Assembly: GCA_904420015.1 (NCBI GenBank)
Contig: CAJFTS010000018.1
Coordinates: 1-64,000, forward strand
From: an uncultured Clostridia bacterium
Lineage (GTDB): Bacteria; Bacillota; Clostridia; Oscillospirales; Acutalibacteraceae
Reading direction: 5' to 3'
DNA length: 64,000 nt
The translations under genes were made by a program, and so were the position numbers. Of the stretch, positions 12,251 through 14,148 are shown one piece after another (the stretch's first letter is position 1; each line of letters starts with the position of its first letter). The notes beneath the pieces were generated by a model. It was not told the origin of the DNA. It searched no databases and was given only the letters and a program-made list of their open reading frames with translations.

Positions 12251-12280
12251 TTGACAAAGAAAGAAGGGGCATGCTATACT
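12251..12280 (+). promoter_or_regulatory. SigA-type promoter of the ABC-F leader
   Basis: Consensus TTGACA, 18-bp spacer, TATACT. Confidence 0.75.
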
Positions 12281-12314
12281 GACCGAAGTATCAGAAAGAA
12301 AGGGGAAGAGGCAC

Positions 12315-12335
12315 TTGCGTCATTTTTCTTGCTAA
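12315..12335 (+). CDS. Putative leader peptide MRHFSC
   Basis: Six codons, TTG start, TAA stop, with a purine-rich site (AGGGGAAGAG) 4-13 bases upstream. It is immediately followed by an overlapping three-codon ORF. A drug-stalled ribosome here could change folding of the downstream leader. Too short to confirm by coding signal. Confidence 0.4.
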   Translation: MRHFSC

Positions 12336-12561
12336 TGGCAGGTTGACCGTCAGCTCCGCCGCCGGCTTGGGCCGGGCGGTGTTGGTTTGACGCCATGCGC
12401 AGGAAAGACGCTCTTGTGACCCCTTCCCGGAATCGATTGCATAACCGACGCGTCCCTTTGGCGGTAAAGCCTTGGCCGCGTTCTCTTTCGTATGGTTTCT
12501 GCCGGCCGCGGGAAAGGTTTCTTTCCTGCGGCTATCTTATTTGTACGGGAGGGAACGCCTG

Positions 12562-14148
12562 ATGGCGACGATTACCATAGAAGACTTGACCTTTTCCTAC
12601 GACACCAACGGGGAGGAAATTTTCTCCCATCTCTCGCTTTCCTTGGATACCCGCTGGCGGCTGGGGCTGATCGGCCGCAACGGACGGGGCAAAACCACCC
12701 TGCTAAGGCTGCTGATGGGAGAATACGCCTACCGGGGGCGGATCTCGTCTGCGGTGCCCTTCGACTATTTCCCCTTTCCGACGGCGGGGGCCGACCGGCC
12801 CGCTTTAGAGGTGGTCCGGGAGGCGGTGGCGCCCTTCTCCGAATGGGAGGCTGAGATGGGGCGGCTGACGGAGGACGGCTCCCCGGCCGCCCTCAATCGG
12901 TACGGGGAGCTGCTCGAGCAATACCAAAGCTGCGACGGATATTGCATCGACGAGCGGATCAAGCGGGAGGCCAACCTCCTGCAGGTGCCGGACGGGGCGC
13001 TCGCCCGCCCCTTCGGGGCCTTAAGCGGCGGGGAGCAGACCAAGCTGCTTCTGGCCGCGCTCTTTTTGCGCAAAAACCGCTTCCTGCTCATCGACGAGCC
13101 CACCAACCATCTGGACGCGCAGGGCCGCCGGGCGGTGGCCGAGTACCTGCGCAGAAAGGCGGGATTCCTGCTGGTGTCCCACGACCGGGCGGTGCTCAAC
13201 GAGGCGGTGGACCACATCCTGTCCATCAACCGCTCCACCGTCACCCTGCAAAAGGGGAACTACGACGTGTGGAAGGAAAACCAGGATCGGCGCGAACAGT
13301 TTGAAGCGGCCGAGAAGGAACGGCTGCAGCGGGACATCCGCCGGCTCAGCAGCGCGGCGGCCCGCAGTGCGGACTGGTCCGACCGGGTGGAGCGGGAAAA
13401 GAACGGCACACGCCTCTCCGGCCTGCGGCCCGACCGGGGATATTTGGGCCACCAGGCGGCCAAGCTAATGAAACGGGCCAAGGCCGCCGAGCAGCGGCGG
13501 ACCCGGGCGGTGGAGGAGGCCAAGGCCCTCCTTTTGGACACGGAAACCCAGGAGACTCTCAAAATCCACACCCAGACGCCTTTGCGATCCCGGCTGCTGG
13601 AGGTCCGGGATCTGACCCTGCGCTTTGAAGGCGGGCCGGCGCTTATCGGCGCCTCCTTCACCGTCGAGGCGGGAGACCGGGTGGCGCTGACCGGCCCAAA
13701 CGGCTGCGGAAAAACAAGCCTGCTCAAGCTGGTGCTGGGGGAGCCTATCCCCCACGAAGGCGTCTGCCGTCCGGCAAGCGGGCTGACCCTCTCCTACCTG
13801 CCCCAGGACGCCTCCTTCCTACGAGGAGAGCTGCGGGACTTCCTGCAAGCACGCGCCCTGGACGAGCCGCTTTTCAAGGCAATCCTGCGAAAGCTGGGTT
13901 TTTCCCGGAACCAATTTGAAAAACGGCTGGAAGAGCTGAGCGCCGGGCAAAAGAAGAAGGTGCTCCTGGCGGCGAGCCTGGCAAAGCCCGCCCACCTCTA
14001 CCTTTGGGACGAACCGCTCAATTACCTGGATATCCCTTCCCGCATCCAGCTGGAAGAGCTGCTGCCGGCCTGCAAGCCCACCCTTTTGTTCGTCGAGCAC
14101 GACGCGGTGTTTGCCGAACGGGTGGCAACCAAGCGGGTTTCCCTATAA
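12562..14148 (+). CDS. ABC-F ribosomal protection protein, Lsa/CplR-like
   Basis: 528 aa from the ATG at 12562 (GGGAGGGAACGC site); the track's earlier start lies in the leader. Two soluble ABC domains and no membrane segment, as in ABC-F. Motifs: Walker A GRNGRGKTT, signature LSGGEQTK, Walker B LLIDEPTNHLD; an interdomain linker rich in Arg/Lys (DWSDRVEREK, GHQAAKLMKRAK); second Walker A GPNGCGKTS, signature LSAGQKKK, Walker B LYLWDEPLNYLD. The opening TIEDLTFSYD..EIFSHLSLSLD and the linker resemble Lsa/CplR proteins that dislodge lincosamides, streptogramin A and pleuromutilins from the ribosome. The attenuator-like leader fits that role. Drug spectrum is inference. Confidence 0.85.
   Translation: MATITIEDLTFSYDTNGEEIFSHLSLSLDTRWRLGLIGRNGRGKTTLLRLLMGEYAYRGRISSAVPFDYFPFPTAGADRPALEVVREAVAPFSEWEAEMGRLTEDGSPAALNRYGELLEQYQSCDGYCIDERIKREANLLQVPDGALARPFGALSGGEQTKLLLAALFLRKNRFLLIDEPTNHLDAQGRRAVAEYLRRKAGFLLVSHDRAVLNEAVDHILSINRSTVTLQKGNYDVWKENQDRREQFEAAEKERLQRDIRRLSSAAARSADWSDRVEREKNGTRLSGLRPDRGYLGHQAAKLMKRAKAAEQRRTRAVEEAKALLLDTETQETLKIHTQTPLRSRLLEVRDLTLRFEGGPALIGASFTVEAGDRVALTGPNGCGKTSLLKLVLGEPIPHEGVCRPASGLTLSYLPQDASFLRGELRDFLQARALDEPLFKAILRKLGFSRNQFEKRLEELSAGQKKKVLLAASLAKPAHLYLWDEPLNYLDIPSRIQLEELLPACKPTLLFVEHDAVFAERVATKRVSL

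Follow-up and report, generated by a model that had tools for sequence, protein, structure and literature searches.

The described systems closest to the leader reported here are those of vmlR from Bacillus subtilis and cplR from Clostridioides difficile, both shown experimentally to work by a short upstream open reading frame (uORF), a choice between antiterminator and terminator and the hiding of the Shine-Dalgarno (SD) sequence of the main gene (PMC9226507; PMC10201436). In the vmlR leader the uORF is located inside an anti-antiterminator hairpin, in combination with an intrinsic terminator, an SD-sequestering hairpin and an antiterminator topped by a central hairpin; the short uORF, MIN, is sensed at initiation (PMC9226507). 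The decision is made kinetically during transcription, with pausing of RNA polymerase. The cplR leader carries a uORF of three codons, MR[I/M], in a 5' hairpin and combines a terminator with a hidden SD under dual transcriptional and translational control (PMC10201436). A short conserved uORF, MAGN, also precedes lsa(A) of Enterococcus faecalis, a gene of the Lsa family (PMC10201436).

The window, i.e. the whole 64,000-nucleotide stretch of DNA that was analysed, contains a gene for an Lsa-like ABC-F protein preceded by its own promoter and a long 5' leader (Table 1). The architecture of this leader corresponds to that of vmlR in the uORF-containing anti-antiterminator hairpin, the intrinsic terminator, the helix sequestering the SD and the apical hairpin of the antiterminator, and to that of cplR in the uORF within a 5' hairpin, the terminator with hidden SD, the dual control that this predicts and the clostridial host. 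All tested structural features of the vmlR/cplR kind were found, except that the window's own U-tract is weak. In contrast to vmlR, the downstream protein belongs to a different family, the uORF consensus in the relatives of the window leader is M-x-x-x-S-C with 6-7 codons, and the uORF tail itself forms a pairing arm. The published uORF consensuses MIN, MR[I/M], MK[L/Q] and MAGN all differ from this one. In cplR the SD is hidden by the terminator stem itself, in the window by a separate outer helix.

Table 1 Features of the ABC-F leader in the window (positions 12251-12561) and the downstream gene
Feature	Position	Strand	Remarks
Sigma-70-type promoter, TTGACA-18-TATACT (TG before -10)	12251..12280	+	11/12 matches; 0.3 expected in region
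uORF SD region AAGGGGAAGAGG, also base of hairpin P1	12300..12311	+	
uORF TTGCGTCATTTTTCTTGCTAA, TTG start, MRHFSC then stop	12315..12335	+	Peptide identical in two congeners; M[RIYK]x..SC in relatives
E1 TTTTCTTGC, last nine sense nucleotides of uORF; anti-antiterminator arm, partner E2	12324..12332	+	
E2 CGCAGGAAAGA, partner E1 or E4	12398..12408	+	
P1 extension, pairs with uORF codons 2-3 and uORF SD	12408..12428	+	
Outer helix 5' arm, flanks terminator, pairs with ABC-F SD region	12478..12494	+	Same in congeners L002 and L023
Terminator-like hairpin E3:E4, 12 bp (E3, 5' arm; E4, 3' arm)	12505..12532	+	
E4 CTTTCCTGCG, terminator 3' arm; alternative partner of E2 (antiterminator)	12521..12530	+	
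Weak U-tract TATCTTATTTG	12533..12543	+	Stronger in most relatives
Outer helix 3' arm with ABC-F SD (GGGAGGG, 12547-12553)	12542..12558	+	Predicted P(SD paired) = 1.00
Lsa-like ABC-F ribosomal protection protein, 528 aa, ATG at 12562	12562..14148	+	

An earlier sequence-only reading had claimed mutually exclusive pairings in this leader, and every element it named was recovered at its place, including the short ORF MRHFSC with a ribosome site at the 5' end and the weak U-tract behind the hairpin. The 10-nt arm E4 is perfectly complementary to CGCAGGAAAG (12398-12407), with 113 nt between the two, and pairs as well with CGCGGGAAAG (12507-12516) within the 12-bp hairpin, downstream of which follows TATCTTATTT. 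The uORF tail E1, overlooked in that reading, is a third and competing element, a further partner of E2. E1 is similar to E4 and E2 to E3. E2 therefore has two possible partners, E1, giving hairpin P1 (the anti-antiterminator), and E4, giving the antiterminator, and E4 can also form the terminator with E3. The folding calculation that had been proposed as a check gave -138.1 kcal/mol for the leader (z = -5.05 against shuffles). Complementarity of this kind might arise by chance where a leader is rich in GC and has an ordinary terminator; indeed, when 12285-12565 was shuffled 2000 times with its dinucleotide content preserved, a hairpin of 12 bp or more arose 70 times and a perfect inverted repeat of 10 nt 80 times, each feature thus appearing in 3.5-4% of the shuffles. 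However, the two never shared an arm (0/2000), and conservation across the phylum together with the covariation described below also argues against chance, which we consider practically negligible as an explanation and rejected.

Homologues of the window ABC-F protein were fetched and their upstream regions examined. Most are preceded by a uORF of the pattern M-[R/I/Y/K]-[N/H/K]-x-S-C, in many cases followed by a terminal K or R, and a mini-ORF with its SD is kept at the expected place in 99 of 100 leaders. A terminator-like hairpin was present in 33 leaders, in 31 of which separate searches with E1 and with E4 agreed on the same E2. A covariance model built from 27 leaders with the helices E1:E2 and E3:E4 (R1) was then used in a genome search blind to the gene. 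It matched 57 of 295 genomes of the order (E up to 0.01), 45 of 391 of the class and 22 of 300 of the phylum (both E up to 0.001), the three samples overlapping in part. For ten order-level matches the E value lay in the range from 1e-4 to 1e-2; of these ten, L113 and L115 at the least are probably spurious. In nearly all cases the gene directly after the match encodes an Lsa-like ABC-F relative of the query. A search against Rfam yielded no family at gathering score and no credible match at E up to 5, and open-access literature searches with the uORF peptides returned nothing relevant. The leaders thus constitute a large family which is absent from Rfam and of which we found no description in the open-access literature, with a design of the vmlR/cplR kind.

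By the sequence-only reading, a lack of covariation among relatives would have refuted the claim, but all three helices, E1:E2, E3:E4 and E2:E4, covary across up to 101 leaders. In a MAFFT alignment (A1), two-sided changes were seen in 12 pairs of E1:E2 and the terminator (4.7 on average in shuffles, 0/500) and in 7 pairs of E2:E4 (2.8 on average in shuffles, 0/500). In the alignment of 101 leaders (A3), such changes affected 15 pairs and 217 cells of E1:E2 and the terminator (0/500 shuffles); for E2:E4, a helix absent from the model behind this alignment, the values were 8 pairs and 88 cells, with 93.3% of the cells paired vs 86.9% in shuffles and at most 55% when the arms were slid by 1-3 columns. 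Three covarying E2:E4 pairs fall at E4 positions that mostly lie in the terminator loop, and for two of the three the observed value of 0.81 was higher than in any of 2000 permutations (maxima 0.74 and 0.75), so that their covariation is not accounted for by the terminator. The shuffles leave the relatedness of the sequences in place, so that these figures provide strong support and not a formal probability. The third base of uORF codon 2 also covaries with its partner (66% paired vs 52% permuted, 0/1000), largely through synonymous CGT/CGC differences, and full four-base pairing of the P1 extension was seen in 27 of 94 leaders vs 9.6 expected.

From these elements it is highly probable that the leader is a ribosome-sensing attenuator of the Lsa-like ABC-F gene, and an antibiotic-stalled ribosome on the uORF very probably turns the gene on. 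Without drug, ribosomes would clear the six-codon uORF quickly, and E1, codons 2-3 and the uORF SD would then fold with E2 and the sequence downstream of it into the long hairpin P1. With E2 sequestered, the E3:E4 terminator would form and end transcription, and in transcripts that read through, the outer helix would conceal the ABC-F SD. Blockers of the first peptide bonds (pleuromutilins, lincosamides and streptogramin A) are expected to hold the ribosome at the uORF start, where it would cover E1, prevent P1 and free E2 for pairing with E4. The E2:E4 helix would abolish the terminator and, for topological reasons, cannot coexist with the helix hiding the SD, so that induction is predicted.

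The energetic effect of masking the uORF start is in the direction of this model, with a median shift of 11.7 kcal/mol in the difference between antiterminator and terminator. For RNAs ending just after the U-tract, the antiterminator was a median of 14.4 kcal/mol costlier when the leader was free and 2.0 kcal/mol when the uORF start was masked, and with masking it was the more stable state in 9 of 30 leaders. The corresponding values were +18.3 and +5.8 kcal/mol for the window leader, and 15.8 and 19.6 kcal/mol (free) and 2.3 and 2.8 kcal/mol (masked) for two congeners. When the outer helix is able to form, as in the full-length window leader, the antiterminator was 13 kcal/mol worse even with E1 masked. 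Given these masked gaps of 5.8 and 13 kcal/mol, the window leader would not switch by equilibrium alone; simple equilibrium switching was not supported for the full leader, and near balance is reached at the decision point. A kinetic decision during transcription, as in vmlR, or help from pausing would be needed, and this kinetic decision is the weakest step of the attenuator model. The weak U-tract of the window and the TTG start of its uORF also count against the model.

The weak U-tract also bears on the level of control. The sequence-only reading had allowed the hairpin to act on translation or transcription, which fits both the good U-tracts of relatives and the additional SD-hiding helix in the window's genus. 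In the window and two congeners, the outer helix (12478-12494:12542-12558) is predicted to surround the terminator and to sequester the ABC-F SD. Control in this genus might thus be mainly translational, with P1 and the outer helix hiding the SD, stalling setting it free and the 12-bp hairpin terminating poorly. The weak U-tract of the window is consistent with this, as is the SD, predicted to be paired with a probability of 1.00 in all three congeneric leaders vs 0.21-1.00 in other relatives, and for cplR translational attenuation alone is enough for tight control (PMC10201436). On the other hand, the E3:E4 hairpin and the T-rich tail behind it are retained throughout the family, and the outer helix has no covariation support because its 5' arm is invariant in the three species; mainly translational control is, in our judgement, possible and rather unlikely. 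If the leader were a riboswitch for a small molecule or belonged to some other known class of RNA, its high degree of structure would be accounted for, but the lack of an Rfam match, the uORF in nearly every member and the absence of a strongly conserved unpaired core other than the uORF make this very improbable.

In the attenuator model, the conservation of the uORF can be read at the level of the peptide or of the RNA. Its sequence M[RIYK][NHK]xSC is strongly conserved, as would be expected of a drug-dependent arrest peptide with an FSC motif, comparable to Erm leader peptides, for which RNA pairing would be secondary; the identity of the VmlR uORF also influences induction (PMC10201436). 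However, in seven leaders the uORF comprises only 2-3 codons (MK, MI, MR, MRN or MKL) and stops before E1, which is kept as untranslated RNA at a nearly unchanged distance from the start codon. Codon usage points in the same direction, with serine codon 5 being TCT or TCC in 82 of 82 cases and cysteine codon 6 TGC in 86 of 86, and where cysteine is replaced by arginine (L048 and L051), E2 and E4 are altered to match. An arrest peptide as the main constraint was rejected in view of the shortened uORFs, and we regard that explanation as improbable. The conserved "FSC" is best understood as what an RNA arm looks like when translated, maintained mainly by pairing, and the uORF would be read mainly for its position; residues 2-3 may also matter. 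In vmlR, the 30S toeprint lies 16 nt from the A of the start codon (PMC9226507), and a ribosome held at the start of the uORF would by this measure cover most of E1. We consider it likely that the leaders form one RNA family, distributed across the phylum and present on mobile lsa(E), which responds to ribosomes arrested at initiation and depends little on the peptide, with a uORF reduced to as few as two codons, perhaps to a bare start-stop, and its tail conserved as a pairing arm. Such natural short uORFs would separate sensing at initiation from peptide-dependent stalling and bear on how pleuromutilins and lincosamides are sensed.

Naturally shortened uORFs (MK, MI, MRN or MKL) with untranslated E1 were seen in L121, L123, L124, L126, L132, L129, L125 and L140 (leader from 1501). 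In L159 and L160 (same genus, 1501-1717) and in L164 from a Paenibacillus plasmid (1277-1481), E1 is kept behind an apparent bare start-stop (GTGTAG, ATGTAG or ATGTGA), an assignment that is tentative given the long SD spacing and possible alternative starts.

The downstream protein had been described as Lsa/CplR-like, of which the Lsa-like part held and the CplR-like part did not. It scored 616.6 bits against the NCBIfam Lsa model NF000167 (cutoff 750), 448.6 bits against the general ribosomal protection model NF000355 (cutoff 380) and 175.5 bits against the CplR model NF043038 (cutoff 780). Since it remains below the Lsa cutoff and passes the general one, it is named Lsa-like and not Lsa. 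The closest solved structure is that of Lsa(A) (7nhk). PADLOC matches of the protein appear to be generic ATPase matches and were disregarded.

The leader of lsa(E) on plasmid p3 of E. faecium Aus0085 (CP006623.1) is a full member of the family (L165:1122-1350, 104 bits, E = 3.6e-21, uORF MYNFSC). It differs from the window leader in that its terminator and the gene are separated by some 150 nt of additional sequence, and the encoded protein is 48% identical to the window protein. DNA matching the lsa(E) leader region was found in 111 plasmid records, 102 of them with at least 80% coverage, mostly from Enterococcus and some from Listeria, Lysinibacillus and Staphylococcus. Among the matches listed, no gene or feature lies under the leader match in the plasmid gene table, which is incomplete, and no description of lsa(E) leaders was found in the open-access literature. 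If the attenuator model is correct, the transferable lsa(E) and many intrinsic ABC-F genes of Bacillota would be drug-inducible via one shared RNA switch, and resistance may consequently be missed in tests without an inducer.

A few R1 matches depart from the usual gene context. One (L093) is a fragment at a contig end, and in L147 and L148 the leader is retained before genes which might be taken for another class and are actually truncated ABC-F genes, broken off within about the first 15-50 codons. Other gene classes behind the leader were limited to two cases. A leader with the uORF MIYVSC precedes an ABC exporter gene (L077/L116; L116 at G397:C16, 28566-28777, minus strand), which suggests a reuse of the switch, and a weaker match (L162, G873:C10:22877-23089, E = 7.6e-6) has E1-, E2- and E4-like elements before a sigma-factor-like gene. 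Distant ABC-F relatives (L013, L017, L019, L015, L016 and L018) are preceded by other short uORFs (MERTF, MKITS, MRR and similar) with repeat-like pairing arms, and these arrangements are perhaps diverged versions of the same design.
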